42,348 nucleotides of DNA from Marivita sp. (lineage in GTDB: Bacteria; Pseudomonadota; Alphaproteobacteria; Rhodobacterales; Rhodobacteraceae), in the NCBI RefSeq assembly GCF_020055635.1, contig NZ_JAIPUT010000039.1, positions 1 through 42,348 of the forward strand. Direction: 5' to 3'. Numbering within the stretch: position 1 is the first letter of the stretch; each line of letters opens with the position of its first letter. Positions 10,465 through 33,162 of this stretch are shown here, one piece after another. The notes beneath the pieces were generated by a model that was not told where the DNA came from, did no database searches, and was given only the letters and a program-made list of their open reading frames with translations. The translations under genes were made by a program, and so were the position numbers.

Positions 10465-10477
10465 TGGAACGCCTGTC

Positions 10478-11242
10478 TTATCCTGCCATGTTGACGGCTT
10501 CGTTGCCACCAACCATTACGTTGACTACCTGTTCGCCGGTCACGTCTCTGGAATTGAAACTGCCCGCATTGCGCCCCAGCCGCAGCACTTCGATCCGGTC
10601 GGTATTGTCCAGAACGAAGTGATGAATGTCGTGGCTGATCACCAGAACGGCCAGCCCGTGCGATGCCAATTCGCGCACGAGGTTGCCCACCTGTTCTGAC
10701 GCCGAATGGCTGAGGGCCGCGGTAGGTTCGTCGAGCAGGACCACCTTAGGTTCCCACAGGATGGACCGGGCGATGGCGATGTTCTGACGCTGACCGCCGG
10801 ACATGGCCCCGACATTTCGGCTGAGCGAGATCGAGTCGAGCCGCATTCGTCTGAGCACGTCCTTGGCCTTCTTTTCGGCGTGGGCGCGGGTCACACGGAA
10901 TCCTGTCCACCAAGGGCCTGTCATCTCGCGCCCGAGAAAGAGATTCTGCACCGCATCGAGATTGTTGCACAAGGCGAGGTCCTGATAGACCGTCTGTACC
11001 CCCATGTCCGACACGCTTGCCGGGGTCGCCCCCTCGACCTTATGTCCTTCGAACAGGTACTCCCCGCTGTCGGGGCGATGCGCGCCGGCCATCACCTTGA
11101 CCAGAGTCGATTTCCCGGCACCGTTGTCACCGACAAGGGCCACGACCTTGCCCGGTTCAAGATCGAGCGAGACATCTGTCAGCGCTTTGACAGGGCCGAA
11201 ATGCTTTGTGATCCCGCGCAGGCGGAGAATGGGTTCTGTCAT
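10478..11242 (-). CDS. Sugar ABC transporter ATP-binding protein, system 1
   Basis: This 254-residue single-domain ABC ATPase has Walker A GDNGAGKST near residue 38, Q-loop YQDLALCNNLD, signature MSGGQRQN and Walker B VVLLDEPTAAL, then switch histidine SHD. All catalytic residues are present. Most ribose/xylose systems use a double-length ATPase; this one is a single-domain protein of the FrcA-like type and so should dimerise. It lies 75 bp after the binding-protein gene and 13 bp before the permease gene, consistent with one transcript. Confidence 0.9.
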   Translation of the reverse strand: MTEPILRLRGITKHFGPVKALTDVSLDLEPGKVVALVGDNGAGKSTLVKVMAGAHRPDSGEYLFEGHKVEGATPASVSDMGVQTVYQDLALCNNLDAVQNLFLGREMTGPWWTGFRVTRAHAEKKAKDVLRRMRLDSISLSRNVGAMSGGQRQNIAIARSILWEPKVVLLDEPTAALSHSASEQVGNLVRELASHGLAVLVISHDIHHFVLDNTDRIEVLRLGRNAGSFNSRDVTGEQVVNVMVGGNEAVNMAG

Positions 11243-11317: not shown

Positions 11318-12406
11318 CTACATGTTTTCCTGGCAGATTGCGGTGGCTGCGGCTCCATCACAGATCTTTTCCCAAGTGTAGAGACCCGCGTCGACGACGG
11401 TGGAGACATTGTCGATTGTCACGTTTTCCACCGGCAGAAAAGCGGCTGGGACATCCATGAAGTCGTTGCTGACACTGTCATTGATCCAGTCAGCGGACAG
11501 ATCCCCGGCATTCAGAATGTCGACCGACAGATCCGCCGCGGCTTCGGCCATTACCCGCAGGTCCTTGAAGATGGTGTTGTCCTGCCAGCCCTGAACGATA
11601 AACTGAACCGCCTCGATGGTTGCGTCCTGACCGCCGGTCACGACCACATCGCCTTTCTGGTAGCCTTGGCTGATCAGCGCCGCGACAGAGCCGCCGGTGG
11701 TGCCGTCATTCATCCCCAAGAACATGTCCACTTGTCCGCCGGTGCGGGTCAGGCAGTTCTCGGCGAACGCCTGCGCCTCGACCGGATCCCAGTTCGGGGT
11801 GAAATCTTCGCAGACCACTTCGACTCGGCCCGAAGCCATCAGCGGCTGGAGATATTCATTCTGGCCCAGTTCGTATTGCGTGGTGCCGTACTCACCCTGA
11901 TTGCCCTTGACGCGGGCGATACGAACCGTGCCTTCGGGCATCGCCTCGATCAGCTCGGCGGCGCGCTTGCCCTGGGCCTGCCCCACGGCGCGGGCGTTGA
12001 AAAGCACATGGGCCTCTGCCTTGCCGCCAATCGCGTCATGCTCGTACAGCAAGACGGGCACCCCTGCCTCTTCCGCCGCCTTGAGCGCCCCGGCCGCCAG
12101 GTTGGCGTCGGACGAGGTATAGACGATCAGGTCCGCGCCCTGTGCCAGCGCATCCTCGACCAGCCGCTGCTGACGCTCCGGATCCCCTTCGCCGTTCTGA
12201 ACGGTCACCGTGGCGCCCGGCATCCGCTCCTTCATGGCGGCCACATACAGCGGCGCGTCGCGTCGCTCGAAGCGGATGGTGGTCGAGTTGGGCAGCATGA
12301 AGAAGACGCTTGCCTCTTGAGCAGCCGCCGGGGCCGCGGCAAACCCGCTGATGGCGAGCGCTGCAAGCAGGCTACCACTCATGAGGTGTCTGATGGATCT
12401 GTTCAT
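11318..12406 (-). CDS. Sugar ABC transporter substrate-binding protein, system 1 (XylF-like)
   Basis: This 362-residue protein has a signal peptide of about 29 residues ending in AAPAAAQ, followed by a Peripla_BP_4 type I fold. The blocks DLIVYTSSDANLAAGALKAA, GVPVLLYEHDAI and FLGMNDGTTGG match xylose/ribose-binding proteins. It should capture a sugar or polyol in the periplasm for the permease and ATPase encoded downstream. A strong GGGAGG site sits just before the ATG. A 29-codon reading frame with its own ribosome site lies immediately upstream, and a regulator-type operator candidate lies 286 bp upstream. Confidence 0.9.
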   Translation of the reverse strand: MNRSIRHLMSGSLLAALAISGFAAAPAAAQEASVFFMLPNSTTIRFERRDAPLYVAAMKERMPGATVTVQNGEGDPERQQRLVEDALAQGADLIVYTSSDANLAAGALKAAEEAGVPVLLYEHDAIGGKAEAHVLFNARAVGQAQGKRAAELIEAMPEGTVRIARVKGNQGEYGTTQYELGQNEYLQPLMASGRVEVVCEDFTPNWDPVEAQAFAENCLTRTGGQVDMFLGMNDGTTGGSVAALISQGYQKGDVVVTGGQDATIEAVQFIVQGWQDNTIFKDLRVMAEAAADLSVDILNAGDLSADWINDSVSNDFMDVPAAFLPVENVTIDNVSTVVDAGLYTWEKICDGAAATAICQENM

Positions 12407-12543: not shown

Positions 12544-12903
12544 TTTGAGACCTCCCTTTGATCTGGCCGATCGTCCGTGCTCCAGACCAGATTTCCTGCC
12601 GTCACTTTCACGACGATCCGCGCAACGGTTCCACTCTGGTATCGCTCAACAAGATGCTATCCCGTGGTCTGCCGCCCGTCGCCTTGCATTCTGTCCAATC
12701 TGGAATCGCCAGTGCCGGCTCAGGTGCGCGCGCCAAGGCCGGGTTCGGCGCGTAAGTTCTCGGCCATCGCTGCGTGAGCGCCAACAGATGGCGCGGTTGC
12801 CAAAATGGTTGATCGCAGCATTTTCGTGATACTTATAGCTTCCTCCGAATTGAATTTGTCCGTCCGCCGGCTGCCTGCCGGTCTAGTTTTGTGGCGTCCG
12901 GTC
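12544..12903. other. Non-coding promoter region of ABC system 1
   Basis: This 360-bp gap between the SDR stop and the 29-codon frame holds no convincing gene. It contains one good operator candidate at 12692-12706 and a weaker related one, TTGCCAAAATGGTTG, at 12797-12811. A 33-codon frame on the minus strand from 12821 looks signal-peptide-like but lacks a properly spaced ribosome site. The gap most likely holds the promoter of the ABC system 1 operon. Confidence 0.55.
12692..12706. promoter_or_regulatory. Candidate operator, class I (copy upstream of ABC system 1)
   Basis: TGTCCAATCTGGAAT fits TGTCCA-N3-TGGAAT, an inverted repeat TCCA-N3-TGGA. The same pattern with different centre bases occurs at 14849-14863 between the iolG-like gene and regulator 1. 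Assignment to regulator 1 is inferred from that pairing. Confidence 0.45.
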
Positions 12904-13779
12904 TCAGCGGAGTTGCTCCGGCAACGGCGTGGACTCGTAGCAACCGATAACCCCCTGATCAAAATCAAGAATCGACCCGGTCATTATACCCGACTCGTCG
13001 CTGGCCAGATGGGCGATCCAGCGCGCCACCTCGTTCATGTCGAGCAGCCGTCCGGCGGGCAATTTCGCCCCGGCCTCTTTTTGCCACCCCTCGGGCATGT
13101 CGTGGTACGTCTTCTGGATGACATCCTCTGCCGGGGTGTCCATCCAGCCGATGGCCAGCGCGTTGACGCGGATTCCGTCGCGCATCAGCGAGAAGGCCGC
13201 GTTCTTTGTCGTCGCCACCAACGCTGCCTTGGACGCGGCATAGACCGTCAGAAACGGCACTCCGCCATGGGCAGTGACCGTTGCCACGTTGACCACGGTC
13301 CCGGGTTTGCCTGCATCGCGCCAATGATTTGCTGCGTTCTGCATCAGAAAGAAGGGCGCCCTTGCATTGATCGCAAAGGTCTGCTCCCAAAGCTCCGCGT
13401 CTCCGTCCAGAATGCCGCCCCGGTCGGTCTTGCCGGCGGAATTTATGAGGACGTCGTAGGTGCCGAATTCTTTGATTGCGCGCTCATGTACCGAACGGCA
13501 ATCATCGAGATCGGTCAGGTCCGCCTGATGATAGACGACACGCTGCGTCTCGGTGCTCAAGGCTTCTGCGGCTGCTTTGCCCTCGGCCGCCTTGCGACCC
13601 ATGATCAGCACACCCTTAAGCCCGCGCCGAAGCATCAACTTCACTGCCGTAAGCCCGAGCCCTTGAGTCGAACCTGTGACCACCGCCACCTTGCCCTCGA
13701 ATTGCCGGTCCAGCGGCACATCTTTGTCAGAGGCCGCACGATAGGCGGCATTGCCGTAGGGGCTTTCATAATCTGTCAT
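12904..13779 (-). CDS. SDR-family oxidoreductase
   Basis: This 291-residue NAD(P)-dependent short-chain dehydrogenase has a Rossmann motif VTGSTQGLG at residues 34-42, the NAG-like motif NSAG near 113, and catalytic Tyr180 and Lys184 in YAASK. The usual catalytic serine region reads VVNVATVTAHGG, with threonine where serine is expected; whether this matters is uncertain. A 28-residue N-terminal extension precedes the Rossmann fold. Its start overlaps the stop of the iolG-like gene as ATGA, so the two dehydrogenases are made together. It probably oxidises or reduces a hydroxyl of the sugar or polyol imported by system 1, but the substrate is unknown. Confidence 0.88.
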   Translation of the reverse strand: MTDYESPYGNAAYRAASDKDVPLDRQFEGKVAVVTGSTQGLGLTAVKLMLRRGLKGVLIMGRKAAEGKAAAEALSTETQRVVYHQADLTDLDDCRSVHERAIKEFGTYDVLINSAGKTDRGGILDGDAELWEQTFAINARAPFFLMQNAANHWRDAGKPGTVVNVATVTAHGGVPFLTVYAASKAALVATTKNAAFSLMRDGIRVNALAIGWMDTPAEDVIQKTYHDMPEGWQKEAGAKLPAGRLLDMNEVARWIAHLASDESGIMTGSILDFDQGVIGCYESTPLPEQLR

Positions 13780-14848: not shown

Positions 14849-14863
14849 TGTCCACATTGGAAT
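14849..14863. promoter_or_regulatory. Candidate operator, class I (iolG/regulator 1 divergent promoter)
   Basis: TGTCCACATTGGAAT fits TGTCCA-N3-TGGAAT. It lies about 69 bp upstream of the iolG-like start and 79 bp upstream of regulator 1, where one site could serve both promoters. The partner copy is at 12692-12706. Confidence 0.45.
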
Positions 14864-14941: not shown

Positions 14942-16681
14942 ATGACGAAACTGGACTCCAAGAAACCACAGCCCGCCGTGCCCGGGAATTTTTTCAACGA
15001 AATGTCGGCGCACGAGCTGGAACGGTTTCTCGATTTTGTCAGCCGGTTCATGACCGAAACCCAGGACACCCTGTTGCTGGGGATGCCCGCGCGCGAAGTG
15101 CCGATCATGGTCCAGCTCATGCGATCGCATCTTCGCGGGCGGCTGGAGACACCATCGTCGCTGATCGACGGTTCAGGACTGGCGCGGGGCACGGCCCACC
15201 GTCTGATCGAGGAAATGGTGGAGAAAGGCCTGATCGCCAAACGTCCCCGCACTCGTAGCGGCAAGACCTTCTCGCTGCATCCGACGCGGCGGATGATCGA
15301 TGCATGGATGAACTATGTGCGTCGGGTGAAATCGCTGCTGGGCACAGCGTTCGGACTGTCGGAAGACACGGATTATTTTTTTGGCGCCTCGTATCTGGCC
15401 ACTGCCGCTGTGGCCCCACTGCCTGTCATGCCCAGCAAGCTGAATCTGCCCGGCGGTTTGCGCCTGCTTCTTCACGCGGATGCGGGTTTCATGGCGATGC
15501 AGAAACTCAAACGGCAGTTCGAGATGCATTTCGGCACTGAAATCGAGGTTCGGGCGCTCAGCATTGACCGGCTGCACCGGGAAATTCTCGACAACGCCGG
15601 GCGAGGTCAGTCACGCTATGACCTGGTCACATGTGATGTCTGCTGGATGGAAGAGATGATCCAGGCCGAGGCGATCCGGCCCGTGCAAATCCTGGATGGA
15701 GGTGAGGCGCGCGATTTGATGGATTTCCACCCTGAGGCGCTTTCGACCGTTCAGCGCGACGATATCCTCTATGGCATTCCTGTCCAGACCACGCCGGAGC
15801 TGTTTCTGTACCGCACCGACATTTTCGAACAACAGGGATTGGAGCCACCAGAGCGCCTCGGCGACTTGCTGGAATGCGCCCGCCGGCTGCACGATCCGGC
15901 TCGCGGGATGAGCGGTATCTGCTGGAATGGCGCGCGCGGAACGCCGGTGGGCACGAGTTTCATGATGCTGATGGCGGATTTTGGGCAACCCATACTGAAC
16001 CTGTCGCGCATGGGGAACGGGTTCCGCGATCAGCAGCTTGCCGGCAAAGAGCTTGTTCCGATGCTTGATAGCCCGGAGGCGCTCGAAGCGGCGGAGTTTC
16101 TCGTTGAAGTGCTCTCATGGTCGCCGCCCAACGTGCTGCAGATGTCGTGGTACGAGCGCGCCCGTTGTTATGCGGACGGGAAAGCTGCAATGGCCTATAG
16201 CTACACCCAGATCCTGCCGTTGGTCGAGAACCATCCGGAACTGCCAAGCTTTGGGCACACGGGGTATCTCCCGCACCCTACGGCACCTGGCATCCCGCGC
16301 AATGCGCCGCTGGGTGGTTGGAACATCTGCGTGCCCTCCAACCTCAAATCCGCGCGGATCGGAGACGTAAGCCTGGCTGCGCGTACTCTGACCTCGGCTG
16401 CCGCCACGAAACTCTACATTGAAAATGGCAGCCTTGTGAGTTCACGCTTCAGCGTTTGCAACGACCCGGTCGTGGCTCACGGTCGCCCGGTCATCGCCAC
16501 CGTCGACAAGATGGCCCGCGCGGGTCAACTTCAGACTTGGGCGCGTCCGGCTGTGCCGCAATTCAACGCGCTTGTTCGCATCCTGGGGGAGGAAATCCAC
16601 ACCATGCTGCTGCGGAACAAGAAACCCGCCGCCGCCCTGCGTGATGCCCAGGCCCGCTGTGAACGGGCAATGGGTCTATAA
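14942..16681 (+). CDS. Regulator 1: winged-helix DNA-binding domain fused to an SBP_bac_1 solute-binding domain
   Basis: This 579-residue protein has no signal peptide. Residues 55-118 form a winged helix (helix pair SGLARGTAHRLIEEMVEKGL, wing RPRTRSGKTFSLHPTRR). From about residue 172 to 560 it has the complete fold of an extracellular solute-binding protein: LHADAGFMAMQKLKRQFEM, YDLVTCDVCW, DDILYGIPVQTTPELFLYR and FGQPILNL. Homology-only pipelines would call it an extracellular solute-binding protein, but the absence of an export signal and the DNA-binding domain point to a cytoplasmic sensor. It aligns with regulator 2 from the first residues to the last, including RSGKxFSLHPTR and GxLQTWxRP. 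ATG 14942 and ATG 15002 are both possible; 15002 aligns exactly with the start of regulator 2, but neither has a strong ribosome site. It is divergent from the iolG-like gene. Confidence 0.8.
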   Translation: MTKLDSKKPQPAVPGNFFNEMSAHELERFLDFVSRFMTETQDTLLLGMPAREVPIMVQLMRSHLRGRLETPSSLIDGSGLARGTAHRLIEEMVEKGLIAKRPRTRSGKTFSLHPTRRMIDAWMNYVRRVKSLLGTAFGLSEDTDYFFGASYLATAAVAPLPVMPSKLNLPGGLRLLLHADAGFMAMQKLKRQFEMHFGTEIEVRALSIDRLHREILDNAGRGQSRYDLVTCDVCWMEEMIQAEAIRPVQILDGGEARDLMDFHPEALSTVQRDDILYGIPVQTTPELFLYRTDIFEQQGLEPPERLGDLLECARRLHDPARGMSGICWNGARGTPVGTSFMMLMADFGQPILNLSRMGNGFRDQQLAGKELVPMLDSPEALEAAEFLVEVLSWSPPNVLQMSWYERARCYADGKAAMAYSYTQILPLVENHPELPSFGHTGYLPHPTAPGIPRNAPLGGWNICVPSNLKSARIGDVSLAARTLTSAAATKLYIENGSLVSSRFSVCNDPVVAHGRPVIATVDKMARAGQLQTWARPAVPQFNALVRILGEEIHTMLLRNKKPAAALRDAQARCERAMGL

Positions 16682-16683
16682 GG

Positions 16684-17799
16684 TTAGACGCAGACCCATT
16701 CCCGTTCGGCATGGGATGCCTGCATAGCTTCAACCGTGCGCTGTACTTCGTAGGCCTCGCGGAAATCGGGACCACAGGCCGGCCCGCCCGAATGCGCCGC
16801 CAGCAATTCGGCCACCTCGATCACCTTCAGATCATTGAAGCCCAAGTGATGTCCCGGTGCCGGACAGAATTGGCCATAAGGCGGATGGGCCGGGCCGGAT
16901 TCGATCCTCGTATAGCCGCTTCGCCCCTGCGTGCCGGACCAGAGCTGCAATTCGTTCATCCGTTCCTGGGTAAAAGCCATAGCACCCTTGGTTCCGCTGA
17001 TTTCCCAAGACAGGTCCATGGTGCGGGCGGTGGCGGCCCAATTGGCCTCGAGACTACCGCTCACCCCGCTATTAAAGCGCAGCAGCGCGTGGGTCATGTC
17101 GTCCACTTCGACGGGCGCTCGCTCGGACGCGCCGGGTGCTTTCGGCCGGGTCCTGTGGATCGTCCTGCAATCCGCCTGCACCCTGGCGATCGGGCCAACA
17201 AGATAGCGCGCCATCGAAATGATGTGGCTGCCGATATCGGCCACTGCCCCACCGCCCTGCGGGTCGGTGCGGAAGGAATGTGGCACGTCGGGGTCGGCCA
17301 TGTAATTCTCGGCATGGCGGCCACGAAAGCCGGTGACCTCGCCAATCTCGCCGCTCGAGATGATGTCGCGCGCCAGCTTGATCATCGGGTTGCGCAAGAA
17401 ATTGAATCCCACGAGCGTGACGATGCCCGACGCCTCTGCCGCTTCGGTCATCTCAAGCGCCAGCGCTGCCGTGGTCGAGAGAGGCTTTTCGCAATAGACG
17501 GTCTTGCCCGCCGCAATTGCCGCATGGGCAATCGGCGCATGCAGCACGTTGGGTGCGGTGATGGCCACGATGTCAACGGACTCATCCGCGACCAGATCCT
17601 GCCAGTCGCCTGTTCCGCGCGCAAAGCCAAGAGACAGCGCAGCCTGTGCAGCCTGTTCGTCGCTTGCATCCGCAAGCACGCGCAGTCGCGGCTCGGCCGG
17701 CACGTCGAACAGCCCCGCAACGCTGCGGAACGCATTTGCATGGCAGCGCCCCATGAATCCCGATCCTACCAGTCCGATGCCGATCTCCGGTTTGCTCAT
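16684..17799 (-). CDS. Gfo/Idh/MocA-family oxidoreductase, system 2
   Basis: This 371-residue NAD(P)-dependent dehydrogenase has a Rossmann start GIGLVGSGFMGRCHANAF, the EKP motif (YCEKPLSTT) and a GFNFLRNP segment, followed by the usual C-terminal alpha/beta domain. It is only moderately like the two IolG-type proteins here and belongs to the broader group that includes pyranose and levoglucosan-type dehydrogenases. ATG 17799 is chosen for a perfect AGGAGG eight bases upstream; 17838 would overlap the ATPase gene. It is the last gene of the ABC system 2 operon. Its stop lies 2 bp from the convergent stop of regulator 1, leaving no room for a separate terminator. Confidence 0.88.
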   Translation of the reverse strand: MSKPEIGIGLVGSGFMGRCHANAFRSVAGLFDVPAEPRLRVLADASDEQAAQAALSLGFARGTGDWQDLVADESVDIVAITAPNVLHAPIAHAAIAAGKTVYCEKPLSTTAALALEMTEAAEASGIVTLVGFNFLRNPMIKLARDIISSGEIGEVTGFRGRHAENYMADPDVPHSFRTDPQGGGAVADIGSHIISMARYLVGPIARVQADCRTIHRTRPKAPGASERAPVEVDDMTHALLRFNSGVSGSLEANWAATARTMDLSWEISGTKGAMAFTQERMNELQLWSGTQGRSGYTRIESGPAHPPYGQFCPAPGHHLGFNDLKVIEVAELLAAHSGGPACGPDFREAYEVQRTVEAMQASHAEREWVCV

Positions 17800-17818
17800 T
17801 GTCTGATCCTCCTGTCGG

Positions 17819-19324
17819 TCATGCCGCCGCATCGTCACGATGATGGGACACAGCGTCGATCAGGTTTTCCTCGGTCATCGCGTCCCCTTCGAATTCTGCA
17901 ACAATCGCGCCCTCGGACATGGCCAGAACCCGGTGGCTGACGCCGAGAACCTCGGGCATTTCCGAAGAGATCACGATCACTGCCAGCCCTTTTTGCGCCA
18001 AGTCCGCAATCAATTCGTGAATGGCCGATTTCGACCCCACGTCGATCCCACGAGTCGGTTCATCGAGAATGATCAGTTTGGGATCCGCACAAAGCCACTT
18101 GGCCAGAACAAATTTCTGTTGGTTGCCACCCGAAAGCTGAGACACCGCCTGATCCGGACCGGTGGTCTTGATCGACAGGGCCGAGCGGTATTTCTCGAAC
18201 ACCGCCAGTTCCTTTGGTCGGTTCATGATCGACACTGACGAAAACAGTCCAAGATGCGGCAGAGACGTGTTTTCCCGCCCACCCATCATCAGCACAAGCC
18301 CCTGTTCCTTTCGGCTTTCGGGCACCAGTGCCATGCCCATGTCAATGGATTGCCGAGGCGAGGGCAGGGCGATCTCGCCGCCTTTCCAATACAGCTTTCC
18401 GCTGTCGGCCTTGCGGACGCCAAAGACGGTTTCGACAACCTCCGACCGCCCGGCCCCGACAAGCCCGTACAATCCCAAAACCTCGCCTTCGCGTACCGAG
18501 AAACCGACATCGCGGAAAACACCCGCTTTGCTCAGCCCTTCGACGCGCAGCACTTCTGCCCCGAACTCGGCTTTGGCCCTGATAAAATAGGTATCCAACG
18601 TACGCCCGATCATCATGCGGGTGACCTGGTTCAAGTCGGTTTCGGCCGTATCGACCGTGCCCTGCACCTGACCGTCGCGCAGCACCGTGATGCGGTCGGT
18701 TATATCAAAAATCTCGTTCATCTTGTGCGAGATATAGACGATGCCGACACCCCGCGCCTTCAGGCCGCGAATGGTCTGGAACAATTGATCCTTCTCGGTG
18801 TCCGTCAATGATGCCGTGGGCTCGTCGAAGATCACGACGTTCGCGTTGAACGCTTCGGCGCGGGCGATCTCGACCATCTGCTGCATCGCTACCGACAGGG
18901 TGCCAACGCGCGTATCCGGGCCGAAGCCACATCCCAGTGCGTCCAACGCGCTTGCCGCGTGACGACGCAATTCGCGCTTCTTCAGCACCCCGAACCGGTT
19001 TGTGGGCCAAGCTCCCAGGTAGATATTCTCGGCCACCGATAGTTCCGGCGAGAGCGACAATTCCTGGTGGATCAGCAATATCCCCTTTCGCCGCGCATCC
19101 AAGGGGCCGGCGACCTGGGTCGGCGCTCCCTGGTAGATGATTTCACCGGCATCGGGCTTGTGCAGCCCGGCCAGCACTTTCATCAAGGTGGATTTTCCGG
19201 CCCCGTTTTCGCCCACCAACGCGTGAACCTCGCCGGAGCGGATGTCAAAGCTTACATCGTCAAGCGCTGTGACACCCGGGAACGTCTTGGTAATGCCTTC
19301 GACCTTCAGAATGACGTCGCCCAT
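17819..19324 (-). CDS. Sugar ABC transporter ATP-binding protein, system 2 (double domain, RbsA/XylG-like)
   Basis: This 501-residue protein has two ABC domains. The first has Walker A GENGAGKST near residue 39, Q-loop LIHQELSLSPELSVAENIYL and Walker B VVIFDEPTASL. The second has the degenerate Walker A GLVGAGRSE usual for this family, then LSGGNQQKF and LIILDEPTRGIDVG. This layout matches RbsA, XylG and MglA. The start at 19324 overlaps the stop of the permease gene as TGATG; a longer upstream frame has no family similarity. It powers the two permeases encoded just upstream and precedes a Gfo/Idh/MocA dehydrogenase by 19 bp. Confidence 0.92.
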   Translation of the reverse strand: MGDVILKVEGITKTFPGVTALDDVSFDIRSGEVHALVGENGAGKSTLMKVLAGLHKPDAGEIIYQGAPTQVAGPLDARRKGILLIHQELSLSPELSVAENIYLGAWPTNRFGVLKKRELRRHAASALDALGCGFGPDTRVGTLSVAMQQMVEIARAEAFNANVVIFDEPTASLTDTEKDQLFQTIRGLKARGVGIVYISHKMNEIFDITDRITVLRDGQVQGTVDTAETDLNQVTRMMIGRTLDTYFIRAKAEFGAEVLRVEGLSKAGVFRDVGFSVREGEVLGLYGLVGAGRSEVVETVFGVRKADSGKLYWKGGEIALPSPRQSIDMGMALVPESRKEQGLVLMMGGRENTSLPHLGLFSSVSIMNRPKELAVFEKYRSALSIKTTGPDQAVSQLSGGNQQKFVLAKWLCADPKLIILDEPTRGIDVGSKSAIHELIADLAQKGLAVIVISSEMPEVLGVSHRVLAMSEGAIVAEFEGDAMTEENLIDAVSHHRDDAAA

Positions 19325-20298
19325 CAGGTGTACCCCTTGTGGTTCAAAACTTTGTCCAGAACGAGGGCCAACACGAGCACGGCGCCCATCACCATCAGTT
19401 CCACATAATTGGGCGTGTTCAGCAGCCGCAGGCCATTCCGCAAGACCGCCAATGTCAGCACACCCCCGATCGTCATCCACATGCTGCCGAACCCGCCTTG
19501 CAGGCGCGTGCCGCCAAGCACCACGGCGATGATCGTCCACAATTCCCAGATCCTGCCTGCATTGGGTTCGGCCGTGCCAAGCCGCATCGATAGCAGTATG
19601 CCGCAAACCGCCGCCAGCGTGCTGCAGATTGTAAAATTTATGATCTTGTGGCGCTTGACGTTGATGCCCGCATCGTGCGCGGCCTCGATATTGTCACCGA
19701 CTGCATAGGTTTCGCGGCCATGCCGAGTGCTCGACAGCACCCATTGGAAAAACAGCGCAAGCGCGAAAAAAATCATTGCCGTAAGGGAAATCGGGCCAAG
19801 ATACACCTCGGGAATCTCGGTATAACTGAAATCCGGCACCATCAGCGCGTTTTCACCCGAGTAGACAAAAACCAGGCCCCGAATGCCGATCAGCCCACCC
19901 AGCGTCACGATAAAGGAATGCATCCCGGACAGCGCCACGAGCGTCCCGTTGAGGAACCCCAGCGCCGCGCCCGACATCAGGCCAAGGAACACCGCGGGCC
20001 AGACGCCCATGTGATCCTGCAACCCAATTGCCAATGCGGAGGCCAGTGCAAGGACGGCGCCCACGGACAAATCAATCTCGCCGTTGATCATTACCATCGT
20101 CATGCCGATGGCGAGAATGCCGATGAACGCGCCCTGGGTCAGGATGTTGCCAATATTGTTGACGGTAAGAAAATACGGGCTTGCCCAGGAAAAGACGATG
20201 ATTGTCAGCGCCAGGAACACCCAAATATGGTTTCTGAGCAGCCACCCGAGCACGCTTTGCAGCGGCGATCCGGCACGGATATCGGTTGCGTGGCTCAT
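19324..20298 (-). CDS. Sugar ABC transporter permease, system 2, second subunit
   Basis: This 324-residue inner-membrane permease belongs to the RbsC/XylH family. It shows about eight to ten hydrophobic helices, the family motif MVMINGEIDLSVGAVLALAS near residue 67, and GDNIEAAHDAGINVKRHKI before the last helices. Its ATG overlaps the stop of the other permease gene as ATGA and its stop overlaps the ATPase start as TGATG. The two permeases share family motifs but are clearly diverged, so a heterodimeric channel is likely, unlike system 1 with a single permease. Confidence 0.92.
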   Translation of the reverse strand: MSHATDIRAGSPLQSVLGWLLRNHIWVFLALTIIVFSWASPYFLTVNNIGNILTQGAFIGILAIGMTMVMINGEIDLSVGAVLALASALAIGLQDHMGVWPAVFLGLMSGAALGFLNGTLVALSGMHSFIVTLGGLIGIRGLVFVYSGENALMVPDFSYTEIPEVYLGPISLTAMIFFALALFFQWVLSSTRHGRETYAVGDNIEAAHDAGINVKRHKIINFTICSTLAAVCGILLSMRLGTAEPNAGRIWELWTIIAVVLGGTRLQGGFGSMWMTIGGVLTLAVLRNGLRLLNTPNYVELMVMGAVLVLALVLDKVLNHKGYT

Positions 20299-21248
20299 GC
20301 GAAAATCCTTCCGCGCTTGGCGCCCAGATCAATCCAGACTGCGATGATGATGACAGCCCAGGTGACGAGCCATTGCACGTAGTAGGGAAAGCCCAGCAAC
20401 AGTAGTCCGTTCTGGATGAAACCGAGCATCGAGATCCCGATGACCGTGCGCCAGATACTGCCCGAGCCGCCCAGGAGCGAGGTGCCGCCAAGGATTACAC
20501 CGGCAAGCACCGTCAGCTCATAACCTTGTCCGATCGTGTTCTGCGCGCCCATCACGCGGCTGCCCATGATGACGGCCGCAACACCGGTTGTGAAACCCGA
20601 GACGACATAGGTCCAGAATACCGTCCAGCGCGCGTCGATCCCGGAAAAGACGCTGGCGGTCTCATTGCCGCCCACACCATAGACGCGCCGCCCGAAGGTC
20701 GTGAATTGCAGAACAACGCCTGCGATTACGGCACCGACCAAAAACAGGATAACCGGCACCGGCAGACCCAGAAAATCACCCCGTCCGAAAACTGCAAACC
20801 AGGTCTCCTGCGCGTTTGCGACATTGACGTTCGACCCGCCCGAATACAGCAGGACAAGACCTTGTAAAAAAGACAACATCGCCAGAGTCACGATCAAAGC
20901 GTTCAGCCCGACAAAACCCACGAGCACTCCGTTGAAAGCGCCCACCGCCAACCCCGCCAGCAGCGTCATGACGATCGCTGGGAAAGGCCCTGCGATATTG
21001 TGCTGATCGACGACGATGACGGTCAGCAGCGTCAACAGCGAACCGATCGAGAGGTCAAGGCGCCCGGTCAGCACGACAAAGGTGACCCCCAGCGCCATCA
21101 TGCCCGTGATCGACACCTGCCGGAGCACATCGAGAATGTTGCCCGGCGACAGAAAGGCATCGGCATTGAGCGCGACTACTCCCAGAAACACCAGGAAGGC
21201 CAGTGCCAGCCCGTGCCGGCGCAACAAGCCATTGATCGTCTGTCCCAT
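20295..21248 (-). CDS. Sugar ABC transporter permease, system 2, first subunit
   Basis: This 317-residue RbsC/XylH-family permease has the motif FVVLTGRLDLSIGSLLTLLT near residue 57 and GGNETASVFSGIDARWTVF in the C-terminal third, with hydrophobic helices throughout. ATG 21248 is preceded by GGGAGGAC and is preferred over upstream frame extensions that look non-coding. It is first in the operon permease, permease, double ATPase, Gfo/Idh/MocA. The binding-protein gene is transcribed divergently from the same 260-bp intergenic region, which carries two operator-like sites. Confidence 0.92.
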   Translation of the reverse strand: MGQTINGLLRRHGLALAFLVFLGVVALNADAFLSPGNILDVLRQVSITGMMALGVTFVVLTGRLDLSIGSLLTLLTVIVVDQHNIAGPFPAIVMTLLAGLAVGAFNGVLVGFVGLNALIVTLAMLSFLQGLVLLYSGGSNVNVANAQETWFAVFGRGDFLGLPVPVILFLVGAVIAGVVLQFTTFGRRVYGVGGNETASVFSGIDARWTVFWTYVVSGFTTGVAAVIMGSRVMGAQNTIGQGYELTVLAGVILGGTSLLGGSGSIWRTVIGISMLGFIQNGLLLLGFPYYVQWLVTWAVIIIAVWIDLGAKRGRIFA

Positions 21249-21297
21249 TGAATGTCCTCCCTGCATTGACGATAGAAAGCGTCCGGGGTCCGAAAAA

Positions 21298-21318
21298 CTA
21301 CCGTTATGTCCAAAATGA
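21298..21318. promoter_or_regulatory. Candidate operator, class II (permease side)
   Basis: The sequence reads CTACCGTT then ATGTCCAAAATGA. It resembles 24324-24344, which has the same CTACCGTT followed by CGTCCAAATCTGA. It lies 50-70 bp upstream of the first permease gene of system 2. It is the weakest of the class II copies because the spacer is one base shorter. Confidence 0.4.
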
Positions 21319-21382
21319 ATCTTTGCCCGGAGGACTTCCGAGCAGCGCTCTGACGTCGGTCTTCGTTGCAAATTACCGAAAA

Positions 21383-21397
21383 TCAGATTTGGACATT
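21383..21397. promoter_or_regulatory. Candidate operator, class II (SBP side)
   Basis: The minus strand reads AATGTCCAAATCTGA, sharing the exact 12-mer GTCCAAATCTGA with the regulator 2/GMC intergenic region at 24333-24344. It lies about 112 bp upstream of the system 2 binding-protein gene. Confidence 0.5.
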
Positions 21398-21508
21398 TAA
21401 GCAATTGAGCGCGCCCCCCTTCTGCCGAACAGTCAGAGGCAAGCACCCCGAAACGCTGCCAACGGGGCGTGCACAGAGGAGGAATGGCAGTGTCCAGAGG
21501 AGGAAAAC

Positions 21509-22498
21509 ATGACGAAATTCACAAAAGCACTGGCCCTCGCCACCGCTGTTGTCTGCTCAGCAGGTGCCGTAACAGCACAGGATGTGCCGGACTGGCTTGA
21601 CGGAGAGCTCAAGAAGCCGCTTTCCGAGACACGGATCGGCATCACCGTGCTTTATCCCGGCTCCAACGCCTATCAGGCAAAATATGCCGAAACCGCCGAA
21701 GCCTATAGCCGGGAGCTTGGCATCCAGGCGACCGTGATGGACCCGCAAGGCGACCCGGCCACGCAATTTGACCAGATCCAGGATATGGCGTCACAAAACA
21801 TGGACGCGCTGGTGGTCTGGCCCACATCTCAGAATGCGCTTATTCCGGCGATCCGCAACGCATCGCGCGCAGGGATCCCGGTAATTACTTCGAACTCGCC
21901 GATCGGCGAAGCGGGACGCCGCTACGTCGTCGGCCATACCGGCCCCGACGATTGCGCTCAGGCCGAGCAAGCCGCCGAGATGTTGGCAGATTCACTCGGG
22001 GGCGAAGGCGATATCGTGGTGGTCGAAGGTACGCCCGGATACTCCGTTTCAATCCTGCGCAAGAACTGCTTCCTCGACAAGATGGCGGACGATTATCCCG
22101 GAATCAACGTTCTCGCCAGCCAGACCGCAGAATGGAACCGGGAGAAGGCGCAGACCGTGATGGAGACGTTCCTTACCCAGTTCGGCGACGAGATCGACGG
22201 GGTCTATGCCTTTGACGATGGTATGGGCTTGGGCGTGATCAGCGCACTGCAGGGCGCCGGCAAGGAACCGGGAGAGGTCAAGGTCGTGACCTGCAATCAG
22301 TTCGGCGAAGGCTGGGACGCGATGAAGGCCGGTTGGCATTCGGGATCCAACAAGCAATCCCCGGTCGATGACGCAATCCTGGCCATCCAGACCGCGATAA
22401 AGGTCGCTAACGGCATCGACGTGCCGGACCTGCAAGGCATCGAGACGCCGAAGGTGCTGCCGCAGAACGTGGACGATTTCGAGCGCCCGTCCTGGTGA
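21509..22498 (+). CDS. Sugar ABC transporter substrate-binding protein, system 2 (RbsB family)
   Basis: This 329-residue periplasmic protein has a signal peptide of about 23 residues ending in AVTA and a Peripla_BP_4 fold. Typical blocks are MDALVVWPTSQNALIPAI, AGIPVITSNSPI and VYAFDDGMGLGVISAL. It should supply substrate to the divergently encoded permeases and double ATPase. The ribosome site GAGGAGG lies six bases before the ATG. An exact second copy of CAGAGGAGGAA occurs 21 bp upstream. The gene is monocistronic and ends in a strong hairpin at 22519-22542. System 1 and 2 binding proteins are in the same broad family but are not close copies. Confidence 0.9.
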   Translation: MTKFTKALALATAVVCSAGAVTAQDVPDWLDGELKKPLSETRIGITVLYPGSNAYQAKYAETAEAYSRELGIQATVMDPQGDPATQFDQIQDMASQNMDALVVWPTSQNALIPAIRNASRAGIPVITSNSPIGEAGRRYVVGHTGPDDCAQAEQAAEMLADSLGGEGDIVVVEGTPGYSVSILRKNCFLDKMADDYPGINVLASQTAEWNREKAQTVMETFLTQFGDEIDGVYAFDDGMGLGVISALQGAGKEPGEVKVVTCNQFGEGWDAMKAGWHSGSNKQSPVDDAILAIQTAIKVANGIDVPDLQGIETPKVLPQNVDDFERPSW

Positions 22499-22518
22499 AC
22501 CCGGTCTCGTGTCATTTC

Positions 22519-22542
22519 GGGCCGCGTCTTGGGACGCGGCCC
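22519..22542. terminator. Hairpin terminator between convergent genes
   Basis: GGGCCGCGTC, a TTGG loop and GACGCGGCCC form a perfect 10-bp stem between the convergent system 2 binding-protein gene and regulator 2. There is no T tract, so it may act in both directions with weaker release or as an mRNA end. Confidence 0.7.
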
Positions 22543-22552
22543 GTATGACTGA

Positions 22553-24256
22553 TCAATAATGCCCCCGCGCGCGCATGATCGCGTCGATCCGGTTCTGTGA
22601 TTGGGACAGGGCCTGCTCGACCGTCAAAACCCCTTGCAACATCATGTGGATCTCATCGCCCAATACACTCAACAGGTCGCTGAATTCAGGGATCGGAGGG
22701 CGCGGCCAGGTCTGCAATTCCCCCCGCCGCTCCATGGCGTCCACTTCGCTGATCAGCGAAGAACTGGTCTGCACCTCCGGGTCGGCGCTGGTCGAGAAGC
22801 GCGGGCTGGTGAGGTTGCCGTTCAGGACGTACCATTTCAGCATTTCTGGTCGCGTCAGATACTCCATCACCTTCCAGGACGCCTTTTTGCGCTGATCGTC
22901 GAGTCCGGCAGGAACCGCCAGCGAAAACCCTCCGATTGGCGACACGGTCGGCGCGCCCGGTCCGTGCGGATGCGGCATAAACTTGACATTTCCATGCGCG
23001 GGAGAGTCCTCGTTCAGCTCGAAGGCGGCGGCACGGATACTCCAGCCATAGGTCATCACCGCCTCGCCGCGCGAAAAAATGTTGATCCGCCGATCCCAGT
23101 TGCAGGTCAGGCTATCTTTGTGGGAAAACTCCGCCAGTTCCAGTAAAAATTCCGCCGAGGCCCGCGCCGCTTCGGTGTTCAGTTGCGGGCGATAGTTCTC
23201 CCCTTCGATCTCGGCGACATTGAATTCATCCCCCAGCGGATCGAGATTGATGATCGGCTGGCCGAAATCCGCGAGTGTCTGGATGAAGGTGTGGGCCATC
23301 GGTGTGCCGCGGCCGAAATTCATCACGATCCCGGCCATATTGAACCTTGAGCGATGCAAGACCCGGGCCGCCAGTAAAAGCTCTTCGGTCGTTCTCGGGC
23401 AGGTCAGCCCGGCCTCGGCAAAGAGGTCCGAGCGGCAGAACAGCAGTTCCGCAGTCGGCTGGATCGGCAGGCCGTACTGGTTGTTGTTCCAAGATGATCC
23501 TTTGTAGGCTGCGTTGTGGAAATCGGATGGGTTATACCGTTCTGCCCGCATGATTTCGTCCAGCGGCTCGATCACACCTTCGGTGGCCAACTGCCCGATC
23601 CATGGAAGGTCCACAGCCATCAGGTCGAATTTGGAGACTTGCCGCCCGGCATTTCGCATGATCTCCCCATGCAGCTCGTCCAGAGGGAGATTTACGATCT
23701 CTATATTGGTCCCGCACAACTCATCCAGATTCGACGAAAACTCGCTGAGCGTCTTGAAGGTCGGATCGATCGGGCTGAGAATCCGGAACGTTCGGTCTAC
23801 CCCGACTCCGATCCGCATGGCACTGGGATATGGCAGCGTCCGCGAGGCCATGTAGTAGCCGCCGAAATAGAAATCGCCCATTTCTCCGTCGCCGGTCGTA
23901 AACCCGAAGGTGTTGCCCACCATCGCCTTGAGCTGCATGGCAAAGCTTTCGAATTCCGCGATGAGTTTTCGCGTGGGATGCAGTGAAAAGGATTTTCCGG
24001 ATCGCGATTTGGGCCGTTTGTGCAGCAGTCCTTCCTCGATCAACTCGGTGATCCGCCGCATCGCTGTGCCATAAGGCACGTCCGCCGCCATCGCCGCCGA
24101 GGTCACGGTCAGCAACTTGCCTTCCAGATGACGACGCATGGCGTAGGCCACGATATTCCAACGCGGGTCCACCTTGGCAAGGCTTGTGCGCTTTTCGGAT
24201 AATTCGCGGTTCGATTCCACGAAAGTCAGAATCCGCAACAGTTCCTCGCGTGTCAT
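22553..24256 (-). CDS. Regulator 2: winged-helix DNA-binding domain fused to an SBP_bac_1 solute-binding domain
   Basis: This 567-residue paralogue of regulator 1 has a winged helix at residues 35-98 (helices MAADVPYGTAMRRITELIEE, wing KRPKSRSGKSFSLHPTRK). A solute-binding fold runs from about residue 155 to 545, with FDLMAVDLPWIGQLATEGVI, YGLPIQPTAELLFCR, FGQPIINLDPLG and GELQTWPRPPIPEF. No signal peptide is present. ATG 24256 has a CAGGAG site nine bases upstream and aligns with the start region of regulator 1, so the longer frame from 24364 is rejected. It is divergent from the GMC oxidoreductase gene with an exact class II operator candidate between them, and convergent with the system 2 binding-protein gene. 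A sugar-responsive cytoplasmic transcription factor is the simplest inference. Confidence 0.82.
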   Translation of the reverse strand: MTREELLRILTFVESNRELSEKRTSLAKVDPRWNIVAYAMRRHLEGKLLTVTSAAMAADVPYGTAMRRITELIEEGLLHKRPKSRSGKSFSLHPTRKLIAEFESFAMQLKAMVGNTFGFTTGDGEMGDFYFGGYYMASRTLPYPSAMRIGVGVDRTFRILSPIDPTFKTLSEFSSNLDELCGTNIEIVNLPLDELHGEIMRNAGRQVSKFDLMAVDLPWIGQLATEGVIEPLDEIMRAERYNPSDFHNAAYKGSSWNNNQYGLPIQPTAELLFCRSDLFAEAGLTCPRTTEELLLAARVLHRSRFNMAGIVMNFGRGTPMAHTFIQTLADFGQPIINLDPLGDEFNVAEIEGENYRPQLNTEAARASAEFLLELAEFSHKDSLTCNWDRRINIFSRGEAVMTYGWSIRAAAFELNEDSPAHGNVKFMPHPHGPGAPTVSPIGGFSLAVPAGLDDQRKKASWKVMEYLTRPEMLKWYVLNGNLTSPRFSTSADPEVQTSSSLISEVDAMERRGELQTWPRPPIPEFSDLLSVLGDEIHMMLQGVLTVEQALSQSQNRIDAIMRARGHY

Positions 24257-24332: not shown

Positions 24333-24348
24333 GTCCAAATCTGACATT
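24333..24348. promoter_or_regulatory. Candidate operator, class II (regulator 2/GMC divergent promoter)
   Basis: GTCCAAATCTGACATT contains the exact 12-mer also found on the minus strand at 21383-21394, and is preceded by the CTACCGTT shared with 21298-21305. It lies 77 bp from the regulator 2 start and about 70-84 bp from the GMC start. Confidence 0.5.
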
Positions 24349-24416: not shown

Positions 24417-26018
24417 ATGGCGCAAACGCAATACGACTACATCGTGATCGGCGCAGGTTCCGCGGGCTGTGCAGTGGCCGGTCGGCTGGGCGAAGCCGGG
24501 CACTCGGTGCTGCTGCTGGAGGCGGGCGGCAAGGATCGCAACCCGTTTATCCACATCCCGCTTGGCTATTCGATGCTCTATGCCAACCGTTCCGTGAACT
24601 GGTGCTACGAAAGCGCGCCGGAGCCGCATCTGAACAATCGCCGCCTGTTCCAGCCGCGCGGCAAGGTTCTGGGTGGGACCGGTTCGATCAACGGCATGAT
24701 CTACATGCGTGGCCAACCTCAGGATTTCGACGGTTGGGAAGCGGCTGGGTGCACGGGCTGGGGATGGGAGGGCGTGTTGCCTTATTTCAAATCCTGTGAA
24801 GACCAGGAACGCGGTGCGGATGCGTTCCACGGGACCGGCGGCCCGGTCGCGGTGTCGGACATCCGCACCGAACATGCGCTTGGCGAAGCTTTTCACGCCG
24901 CGTCCGAAGCTCTTGGCGTACCGCGCAACGATGATTTCAACGGTGCCCAGCAGGAAGGCACCGGTTACGTCCAAACCACAACCAGAAAAGGCATGCGCTG
25001 GAGCACGGCGGCAGGCTATCTGCGCGGTGCTGCGAAACGGAATATCGACCTGACGCTTTACGCCATGGTCGAACGCATCCTTCTGGAGGGCCGTCGCGCC
25101 ACGGGTGTCCGCTGGACCGACAGGCAAGGCACACATGAGGCACGGGCACGGCGCGAGATCATCCTGAGCGGCGGAACCTTCAATTCGCCGCAGATCCTCC
25201 AAATCTCCGGGATCGGTCCGGGCGCGCTGCTCAGGCGCCACGGCATCGAGGTGCAGCACGAATTGCCGGGCGTTGGCGGAAACCTGCAAGACCATTTCGG
25301 CATAGGCGCGGAATACCGATCCACGGTCCATTCCACCGTCAACGATCTTTACAACAACAAGCTCAAGGGCGGGCTGCAACTTCTGCGTCACTTGATCTTC
25401 CGCAGCGGTCCCTTTGCCGACAACGGCAATTACTCCAATACCTTCATCTGCTCGGGACCAGAGATCGACCGCCCGGACATGATGGTCACTTTCATGGCCT
25501 GGTGCACGAACGAACAGCTCAAGCCGCACCCGTTCTCGGGCTTCACCATATTGGCCGAACACATGCGCCCCACCTCCCGCGGGCATGTCAGGATCTCCGG
25601 CCCGACTCCCACCGATCAGCCGGAGATCCAGTTCAATTTCTTCTCGGAAGAAGCCGACCGGCGCGCCGCGATTGCCGGTCTGCAATTCGGACGCAAGATC
25701 GCACAGACGCGGCCGATGGCCGACTGCGTGGATTACGAGATTTCACCAGGAAAAGATGTGCAGTCCGAGGCCGAATTGCTGGATTATTGTCGCGCCAATG
25801 GCTTGTCGCTTCTACACCCGGTCGGCACCTGCAAGATGGGAGTGGACGACGATTCCGTGGTCGACCCCCGCCTGCGGGTCCAGGGTATCGACGGGTTGCG
25901 CGTCGCCGATGCCTCGATCATGCCACGCATCGTCACCGGAAATACCAATGCTGCCGCGATCATGATCGGCGAAAAAGCTGCCGCTTTGATCCTCGAAGAC
26001 GTCAAGGAGCTTGCCTGA
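24417..26018 (+). CDS. GMC-family FAD-dependent oxidoreductase
   Basis: This 533-residue flavoprotein of the glucose-methanol-choline family has the FAD-binding start DYIVIGAGSAGCAVAGRL at residues 7-24 and GMC signature 1 RGKVLGGTGSINGMIYMRG near residue 80. Signature 2 (GGTFNSPQILQISGIG) and the catalytic histidine in LLHPVGTCKMG near residue 466 follow. The length matches choline/alcohol dehydrogenase-like members. There is no signal peptide, so it is cytoplasmic. It shares a TGATG overlap with the following IolG-like dehydrogenase gene, so both probably act on one polyol or sugar. Its substrate cannot be assigned; a true choline dehydrogenase role is not supported by neighbours. Confidence 0.88.
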   Translation: MAQTQYDYIVIGAGSAGCAVAGRLGEAGHSVLLLEAGGKDRNPFIHIPLGYSMLYANRSVNWCYESAPEPHLNNRRLFQPRGKVLGGTGSINGMIYMRGQPQDFDGWEAAGCTGWGWEGVLPYFKSCEDQERGADAFHGTGGPVAVSDIRTEHALGEAFHAASEALGVPRNDDFNGAQQEGTGYVQTTTRKGMRWSTAAGYLRGAAKRNIDLTLYAMVERILLEGRRATGVRWTDRQGTHEARARREIILSGGTFNSPQILQISGIGPGALLRRHGIEVQHELPGVGGNLQDHFGIGAEYRSTVHSTVNDLYNNKLKGGLQLLRHLIFRSGPFADNGNYSNTFICSGPEIDRPDMMVTFMAWCTNEQLKPHPFSGFTILAEHMRPTSRGHVRISGPTPTDQPEIQFNFFSEEADRRAAIAGLQFGRKIAQTRPMADCVDYEISPGKDVQSEAELLDYCRANGLSLLHPVGTCKMGVDDDSVVDPRLRVQGIDGLRVADASIMPRIVTGNTNAAAIMIGEKAAALILEDVKELA

Positions 26019-27040
26019 TGCAGACGCTTGGACTGGCCCTCATGGGCACCGGACGCATGGCCCATGTCTATGGTCCGAAGATCAACGCTCATCCCGGTCT
26101 GCGGCTCGAGGTCATCTATAACCCCCGCATGACATCGGCTGAAAAAGCCGCCGGGCAGTATGGCGGGTGCGCGATGGACGATCTGGATGCGGTGCTTGCC
26201 AACCCAAAGGTCGACGCGGTTGTGATCGCCACACCGACCGACACCCATGTCGACTATATCGAAGCCGCCGCCCGCGCGGGCAAGCCGATCTATTGCGAAA
26301 AGCCGCTTGATCAGTCGCTTGAGCGTGTGGACCGAGCCATGGCGGCGCTTGACGCTCACCCCGTGCCCTTCATGCTGGGTTTCAACCGGCGCTTCGATCC
26401 GGACAATGCGGCCCTGCGCGCGGCGGTGAAGCGGGGCGAGGTGGGGCGGCTCACCATGCTGATGAGTTGGTCGCGCGAACCCAGCCCACCGCCGATCGAC
26501 TATGTCCGGGCCTCAGGCGGATATTTCGTCGATGCCACGATCCACGATATCGACCTGATATGCTGGATTGCCGGCGAACGTCCGGTCGAGGTCATGGCGG
26601 CCGGCTCCTGCATGTTCGACGCCCGGATCGGCGCCGAGGGCGATTTCGACATGACCATGACGACGCTCAGGATGCCGTCTGGAGCCCTCGTTCACATCAA
26701 CAACAGCCGCAGCTGTGCCTACGGATTCGACCAGCGGATGGAAGTCTTTGGCGACAAGGGGATGGTGCAGACGCTCAACCACCGTGACGACAATCTCGTA
26801 CGCTGGGACAAGACCCGCACCGTCGCTCGCGAGCCGCTCAAACACTTCTTTCTCGAACGCTATGATCAATCCTTTTACAATGCACTCGACGAGTTCCATG
26901 CGGCAGTGACAACCGAGCGGAACCCATCCGCGTCCGCACAAGATGGTCGCGCCGCGCTCGCCATCGCGCTTGCCTGTTCGCAATCCGCAAAAACCGGCAG
27001 CGCCATCAAACCGGATTACGAACAATGCCTCCGGGAATGA
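26018..27040 (+). CDS. Gfo/Idh/MocA dehydrogenase, inositol dehydrogenase-like, second copy
   Basis: This 340-residue protein is a paralogue of the iolG-like gene at 13776-14780. The start is LGLALMGTGRMA, EKP lies at residues 94-96, GFNRRFD at 121-127, and the D-x3-H pair is Asp172 and His176. Shared blocks such as the SGALxHINNSR stretch make the relation plain. It is translationally coupled to the GMC gene by TGATG. The long frame upstream of 26018 runs through the GMC gene in another frame and is not part of it. It probably oxidises a cyclitol or pyranose hydroxyl using NAD. Confidence 0.87.
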   Translation: MQTLGLALMGTGRMAHVYGPKINAHPGLRLEVIYNPRMTSAEKAAGQYGGCAMDDLDAVLANPKVDAVVIATPTDTHVDYIEAAARAGKPIYCEKPLDQSLERVDRAMAALDAHPVPFMLGFNRRFDPDNAALRAAVKRGEVGRLTMLMSWSREPSPPPIDYVRASGGYFVDATIHDIDLICWIAGERPVEVMAAGSCMFDARIGAEGDFDMTMTTLRMPSGALVHINNSRSCAYGFDQRMEVFGDKGMVQTLNHRDDNLVRWDKTRTVAREPLKHFFLERYDQSFYNALDEFHAAVTTERNPSASAQDGRAALAIALACSQSAKTGSAIKPDYEQCLRE

Positions 27041-32734: not shown

Positions 32735-33162
32735 GTCTATGCTCTTTTGCCTGCCACGGCTGAAAGCGTCTTGCTCAATGGATGCGCAATCTCTTCCAGA
32801 AGTGCGGTTGCAAACCAAGGTGTTGTATTGGGAGAACTTTTGGTTTGTCCGTCAGTTCCAAGATCTCACGGCATCCATTGATGGGGAAGACGGAAATCCC
32901 CTGATGATAGGGGGATGCGACTCATTCGCGACGGAAGCCGCAATTTCCTATGTCTGTCAGGTTGAGCGCAAGCATGTCGAGTAAGCCGGTGCAAACAGCT
33001 ACAACTGGCTTGTCATGGTTGATGAGGCCGGCAGCTGCGTTGTCGGCATAGTATCCCTCAGGGAAGGTGTTGGCAGCACCTATACGAGCATCAAGTTTCT
33101 CCCCGGAACATGGCAGCCGGGGTTCGGGTTGCCTTTGCGAGACCCCGAAACGGAGCTAATTC
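32735..33162. other. Intergenic region with a possible CBS-domain relic
   Basis: No intact gene is seen in these 428 bp, which separate divergent genes. In the frame of 33006-33080 the plus strand reads WLVMVDEAGSCVVGIVSLRE, which resembles the core of a CBS domain. Both sides run out of similarity or into stops. It may be the remnant of a stress-cluster CBS protein, or chance. Confidence 0.3.

Follow-up and report, generated by a model that had tools for sequence, protein, structure and literature searches.

Regulators that join a helix-turn-helix (HTH) domain to a solute-binding domain have precedent: an excerpt of PMC13060122 presents DsvR as an HTH plus SBP_bac5 regulator homologous to SgrR, and ties SgrR/DsvR to sugar metabolism. 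Here we report on two genes in a 42,348-bp stretch of the Marivita sp. genome (contig NZ_JAIPUT010000039.1, positions 1 to 42,348; hereafter the window), whose products P0001 (14942–16681, forward strand, 579 aa, clade A) and P0002 (22553–24256, reverse strand, 567 aa, clade B) each pair a predicted winged helix with a solute-binding protein (SBP) domain. SgrR and DsvR are the closest known kind: like them, P0001 and P0002 show an HTH at the N-terminus, a solute-binding domain at the C-terminus and no signal peptide; unlike them, they carry SBP_bac_1/SBP_bac_8 rather than SBP_bac_5 (PF00496), and have other neighbours. We take SgrR itself to carry the SBP_bac_5 domain. SgrR_N (PF12793) has no match at E ≤ 1 in P0001 or P0002 and none in the whole genome, in a search whose Escherichia coli and Bacillus subtilis controls both matched; P0001 and P0002 are therefore not SgrR.

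Effector domains of the periplasmic-binding-protein type also occur in the LacI and LysR families, with other folds or subclasses and other HTH types, and neither P0001 nor P0002 matches the LacI/LysR Pfam families. Btr, an AraC HTH with a FhuD-like domain, represents an HTH fused to an SBP-like sensor of another SBP class. A preliminary description of this DNA knew of no characterised regulator with the SBP_bac_1 fold; our search of open-access literature (titles and the starts of abstracts) likewise found no regulator with an HTH and an SBP_bac_1 sensor, an absence that such a search leaves unproven, and the statement is refined in that SBP-domain regulators are known (DsvR, as excerpted from PMC13060122). 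The exported SBP_bac_1 proteins of CUT1 importers (5iai, the TMBP 1eu8 and the sorbitol SBP 4rya) share the fold of the window proteins at 20–23% identity (Foldseek); these and a homologue in genome G427 (locus L141) are exported and have no winged helix, unlike P0001 and P0002. Set against extracellular SBP family 1, the window proteins have the domain over its cut-off, with neither a recognisable export signal nor the pairing with a CUT1 permease.

We are highly confident that P0001 and P0002 are cytoplasmic one-component regulators, in which a winged helix acts on a palindrome and a MalE-type domain senses a solute. Computation finds the fused architecture, no recognisable signal peptide, conserved promoter sites and a single fusion clade. 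In the mechanism that we propose, the N-terminal winged helix, probably dimeric, would bind a palindrome whose core is TCCA-N3-TGGA (for P0002, the variant TCAGATTTGGA), and the complete C-terminal MalE/SBP_bac_1-type domain would close on a small solute or oxidation product in the cell, this closure changing DNA binding; the targets of each regulator would be its own divergent promoter together with the CUT2 importer and oxidoreductase genes next to it. The preliminary description had already suggested one-component regulation, which the palindrome conserved at both regulator and importer promoters now supports computationally, as an independent line.

Domain architecture and family

P0001 and P0002 align over nearly their full length (35% identity over 563 aa with 8 gaps; BLASTP), and the placement and end-to-end homology of the two genes in the preliminary description stand. 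Both exceed the curated Pfam cut-offs for SBP_bac_1 (E = 2e-13 for P0001 and 8e-23 for P0002) and for SBP_bac_8 (7e-14 and 2e-17). AlphaFold2 monomer predictions, made from input alignments of 53 (P0001) and 39 (P0002) sequences, reached a mean predicted local distance difference test score of 87.2 and 87.9, respectively, and have the same order of parts: an N-terminal helix, a winged helix, a 21-residue linker helix, a low-confidence link and an SBP fold. In P0001 the winged helix occupies aa 53–114 (15098–15283, forward; helices at 53–64, 71–78 and 82–94, strands at 98–102 and 110–114), the linker helix, a possible dimer contact, aa 116–136 (15287–15349, forward), and the SBP domain aa 173–579 (15458–16678, forward); the model matches 5iai best in the PDB, with a Foldseek TM-score by target length of 0.90, as compared to 0.86 for MalE3 (6dtq) and 0.83 for TMBP. 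The corresponding parts of P0002, all on the reverse strand, are aa 31–94 (23975–24166), aa 96–116 (23909–23971) and aa 157–567 (22556–23788). In both models three helices and then two strands make up the winged helix; RSGK sits in the loop that joins the strands, and FSLHP at the second of them. A whole SBP_bac_1 domain and a winged helix with an RSGK...FSLHP wing had been claimed for each protein; HMM search and modelling recover the former, and modelling the latter, with sub-threshold Pfam HTH matches.

Those HTH matches are to HTH_IclR, for which P0001 scores 21.8 bits (cut-off 22) and P0002 has no match, and to MarR_2, weak in both. Among 53 aligned family members, SBP_bac_1 is found in all 53, MarR_2 at E ≤ 0.1 in 40 (best 2.7e-6), the IclR HTH at E ≤ 0.1 in 18, and the TrmB HTH, weakly, in 19 (best 0.0036). 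Neither P0001 nor P0002 matches the IclR effector domain at E ≤ 1, and the TrmB sensor domain is absent from the Pfam matches of P0001, P0002 and the 53 members. A profile of 21 N-terminal domains (A6) met 16 PDB sequences at E ≤ 1, the best at 0.011; the top matches are HTH/MarR-type regulators, but 2 of the 16 are non-regulators (Dicer-like 3 and an MS2 entry).

By sequence comparison, P0001 and P0002 belong to a proteobacterial family of such fusions. Some relative is encoded by 324 stretches in named genomes, of which the best 80 were kept; the remaining 244 may include ordinary SBPs. The N-terminal part is present in 80/80 fetched relatives, with all matches beginning at or before query residue 30 and an N-terminal extension of ∼150–170 residues in each; the established architecture claimed by the preliminary description is confirmed. 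Two partial matches had been candidate counter-examples: the one in G540, cut by a contig end, was dropped, and the one in G427 (contig C83) proved to be an exported SBP and became the transport sister of the family. With the own genome counted each time, P0001 has matches in 12/17 genomes of the genus and in 6/398 genomes sampled across the phylum, and P0002 in 50/295 genomes of the family; a third paralogue (42% identity) lies elsewhere in the own genome. All 34 matches in plasmid records cover at least 80% of P0001. Before counting, the 80 loci were sorted by identity and gene order into groups A (L018–L027), C (55 loci) and D (15 loci); a later tree moves two D members (L040 and L051) nearer to C. 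Family members were also seen, on a long branch, in three 1.4-Mb genomes of one family in the same class (G718, G923 and G994; loci L154–L156).

The SBP domain might no longer sense anything, and serve the regulator as a dimer scaffold or as a platform for protein interaction, for instance with the importer. The neighbouring importers are mostly CUT2 and have an SBP of another class of their own, which suits such a role; yet the domain is whole, many residues are conserved throughout its length, and it keeps the GG-aromatic and RP motifs in alignment with sugar-binding homologues, and we consider this alternative unlikely. In TMBP these motifs presumably touch the sugar.

Export signal

Export was assessed by hydropathy only. 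The highest 12-aa Kyte–Doolittle mean within the first 70 residues is 1.0 for P0001 and 1.3 for P0002, as compared to 2.1–2.2 for the three true SBPs of the window; the same measure gives 1.6 and 1.2 when taken over the open stretch that surrounds and precedes the start. Across loci, the median is 1.92 for neighbouring RbsB-like SBPs and 1.26 for the regulators. In three Nioella loci (L019, L020 and L022) the reading frame is closed by a stop 11 codons ahead of the start, too short a distance to hide a signal. An upstream start that would allow export was thus rejected for the window genes (hydropathy) and for Nioella (in-frame stops), and the lack of a signal peptide that the preliminary description reported for both genes holds by hydropathy, upstream starts included.

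Public annotation would have these proteins be ordinary periplasmic SBPs with a mis-called or unusual N-terminus: 26 of the 34 plasmid records carry the name “extracellular solute-binding protein” and another is called a periplasmic component, SBP_bac_1 is over its cut-off, and the hydropathy test is insensitive. We give this hardly any credence, given that neither window protein shows a signal and Nioella has no room for one, that the N-terminal extension seen in all 80 relatives is modelled as a winged helix in both window proteins, that a CUT1 permease lies beside only one of 68 long loci, and that palindromes are conserved upstream.

A conserved palindrome upstream of the regulator genes

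The strongest new evidence for regulation is a conserved DNA site, TCCA-N3-TGGA. Upstream regions of P0001 and nine orthologues have a mean column identity of only 48%, yet TGTCCAnnnTGGAA is invariant among them. An unguided count of spaced 4-mers places TCCA-N3-TGGA first or within the first four in groups C and D, which have the same core with other flanks (TATCCAnnnTGGATA). Within 330 bp upstream plus 30, the exact core is present in 10/10 loci of group A, 34/55 of C and 8/15 of D, against dinucleotide-shuffle means of 0.05, 0.51 and 0.08 (a 400-bp stretch gives 7/15 for D instead); with one mismatch allowed in the 400-bp stretch, the counts are 10/10, 54/55 and 10/15, against simple-shuffle means of 1.25, 7.5 and 1.8. 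Other spacings from 0 to 12 occur in at most one locus each. The exact core is denser in the 400 bp upstream than in the rest of the same loci by 58-fold (A), 93-fold (C) and 13-fold (D). In group C, 31/55 loci have two sites (at most one mismatch) exactly 21 bp apart, as compared to 0.01 in shuffles; we infer from this spacing, two helical turns, that two dimers could sit on the same face of the DNA. No clear -35/-10 was seen by eye around the tandem sites in 18 sequences. Clade C promoters also conserve TTTGAACATTTT, ∼60 bp beyond the first tandem site and near the regulator start codon, a stretch that resembles a degenerate operator half.

The 42,348 bp of the window hold just two exact copies of the core TCCANNNTGGA, one upstream of P0001 and the other upstream of the neighbouring importer. 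The candidate operator TCCA-CAT-TGGA (14851–14861, within TGTCCANNNTGGAA at 14849–14862) lies in the divergent gap between P0001 and the Gfo/Idh/MocA gene and is invariant in the window and nine further loci; the second site, TCCA-ATC-TGGA (12694–12704), is 0.3 kb upstream of the CUT2 SBP–ATPase–permease genes. A second site ∼2 kb upstream, as in the window, is found in L021, L023 and L027; in L026 it is at 1.1 kb, and in L025 a site falls at the start codon. TGTCCANNNTGGAA is present exactly at four places in the 4.94-Mb genome (one for the reversed control), a number close to chance by our own estimate, so placement is what counts: two of the four are the two promoters in the window. The other two places are G000:C33:10544–10557 and C57:33278–33291. 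With two mismatches allowed, TGTCCANNNTGGAA is no commoner than chance in the window (5 found, 9.4 expected), and only the two exact matches and their positions therefore carry weight.

Clade B uses a variant, TCAGATTTGGA, that keeps the TGGA half and the spacing of the family core. In the window it stands 78 bp upstream of P0002, in the promoter shared with the GMC gene (24334–24344, reverse), and again between divergent CUT2 permease and SBP genes (21383–21393, forward); that permease/SBP intergenic region also holds a one-mismatch family site, TCCAAAATGAA (21309–21319). Five of the ten clade B loci were aligned, and the scan took in all ten, the window and L021. Upstream of the regulator, TCAGATTTGGA is exact in 7/10 loci (window counted) and has one mismatch in two more, and the tenth, L116, has the exact family core in its place. 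At the importer promoter it is present in 4/10 (the window, L017, L114 and L116) and was not seen in the fetched stretches of the other six. L117 (44% identity, outside clade B) has no clade B site in the scan. The pattern TCAGATTTGGACNNA did not pick up the second P0002 site, owing to its tail.

More remote members have sites as well. Aminobacter L162 (25–27% identity) has exact sites before its own operon and in the divergent promoter beside it, and exact cores stand at promoter-like places in Skermanella L166 (two), in Agrobacterium L167 (behind the regulator) and in G158 of the same phylum. Ahead of the third paralogue of the own genome, TCCANNNTGGA stands exactly at positions -177 and -93 relative to where the match starts, and a core with one mismatch lies at -198, 21 bp away from its neighbour; a search of the own genome on both strands for TATCCANNNTGGATA with one mismatch found one place, away from this paralogue. 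In L014, one exact match falls inside the coding match.

The palindrome could instead belong to another regulator, such as a LacI or GntR protein, with the fusion protein acting elsewhere. The site is predicted by computation only, as this alternative would allow, but the core recurs upstream of the A, C and D regulators, with a variant in B, in different operons and with group-specific flanks, and we regard such an assignment as very unlikely.

Several points weigh against our reading of P0001 and P0002 as regulators. No curated HTH family exceeds its Pfam cut-off in either protein, and the N-terminal profile meets PDB chains only at E of 0.011 or worse. The hydropathy test is weak, as only 24/57 neighbouring RbsB-like SBPs reach 2.0, and 6/80 regulators reach that value once the upstream open stretch is counted. 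A site with at most one mismatch is missing from the 400 bp upstream in 6/80 loci. Among eight plasmid loci, only L166 has an exact site in the 600 bp that precede the start (L163 and L168 have one-mismatch sites within that distance), and the exact core is nowhere in the fetched stretches of L163, L164, L165 and L168. Orthologous promoters share ancestry, and shuffles therefore overstate significance. Support for the fusion clade described below is moderate. The DNA binding is predicted by computation only; we infer the DNA contact, the dimer and the ligand, and binding may either repress or activate.

Origin of the fusion

The exported SBP of G427 (contig C83; L141), the closest unfused relative found, is encoded by an open frame of 450 aa; its N-terminus is signal-like, it is 39% identical to the P0002 domain, and it adjoins two open frames that, read by eye, resemble importer permeases. 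A tree was built from 61 fusions and 13 rows taken as free SBPs (with L157 among them unchecked). In it, all fusions fall on one side of a branch with support 84/78, recovered in 86% of bootstrap trees, and the G427 protein stands next to the fusion clade with support 92/99. The other free SBP rows have long branches and unsure placement; two of them adjoin L-iditol or mannitol dehydrogenase genes within importer operons. The simplest reading, though not proven, is that the family goes back to one fusion event, in which the donor of the domain was an exported SBP serving a sugar or polyol importer.

Neighbouring genes and possible ligands

The preliminary description placed an oxidoreductase gene divergent from each regulator and a sugar importer nearby. 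The former are a Gfo/Idh/MocA gene for P0001 (13776–14780, reverse) and a GMC gene for P0002 (24417–26018, forward); importers do adjoin, with the correction that their class is CUT2 (Peripla_BP_4, BPD_transp_2) and not CUT1, to which SBP_bac_1 belongs. Besides the Gfo/Idh/MocA gene, the predicted targets of P0001 are, all on the reverse strand, an SDR oxidoreductase (12904–13779) and genes for a CUT2 SBP (Peripla_BP_4; 11318–12406), an ABC ATPase (10478–11242) and a CUT2 permease (BPD_transp_2; 9259–10512). For P0002 they are the GMC gene, a CUT2 SBP (Peripla_BP_4; 21509–22498, forward), two CUT2 permeases (20295–21446, with a start probably near 21248, and 19324–20298, both reverse) and a CUT2 ATPase with two ABC domains (17819–19342, reverse; start not settled). 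The last gene of this second CUT2 cluster encodes a Gfo/Idh/MocA oxidoreductase (16684–17796, reverse), and another lies behind the GMC gene (26018–27040, forward). Farther off in the window, 31481–32818 joins PCMT methyltransferase and erythromycin-esterase-like domains in one chain.

Among the 68 loci of at least 12 kb, all from the closest relatives, 65 have a CUT2 permease (by one permease query) and one a CUT1 permease; the remoter plasmid loci L162 and L167 have adjacent CUT1-like genes. Neighbours across loci include oxidoreductases (Gfo/Idh/MocA, SDR and GMC) and sugar isomerases and, in some, iolG, hydroxypyruvate isomerase or a ring-cleavage dioxygenase. From these gene kinds, our guess is that the ligand may be a polyol, a cyclitol or a first oxidation product of one.

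Relatives of the third paralogue (L168, 1642–19665; many clade C loci, e.g. L041, L050 and L065) stand in a conserved two-sided cluster, with a CUT2 importer, an SDR and often a 3-hydroxyisobutyrate-dehydrogenase-like gene on one side, and an SDR, an M24 protein, E1alpha, E1beta, a lipoyl protein and an aldehyde dehydrogenase on the other. In the PDB, the M24 protein comes closest to 4s01, 4rzy and 4b28 (best E 1.4e-22), which we take to be the DMSP lyase DddP. A remote clade (L162, L164, L165 and L169) has YciI in 4/4 loci, Gfo/Idh/MocA and 2,3-butanediol dehydrogenase in 3/4, an intradiol dioxygenase in 3/4, and a maleylacetate reductase in L162, a neighbourhood that suggests a carbocycle that is oxidised and ring-opened.

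Implications

We lean, though not strongly, towards a broader view in which a proteobacterial family of regulators took over a MalE-type SBP from a CUT1 importer in a single event, uses it as a sensor in the cytoplasm, and now mostly governs CUT2 importers through the operator TCCA-N3-TGGA; a type I SBP would thus bind the solute outside, and an unrelated type II SBP would read that solute inside. If this is true, genes filed as those of transport proteins, dozens here and perhaps several hundred in all, would encode transcription regulators, whose regulons the predicted operator would help to define. The MalE-type SBP, among the best studied ligand-binding domains, would join the natural sensor domains of one-component regulators, and the family would offer a way into uncharacterised pathways for carbohydrates and cyclitols in alphaproteobacteria of the sea and the soil.

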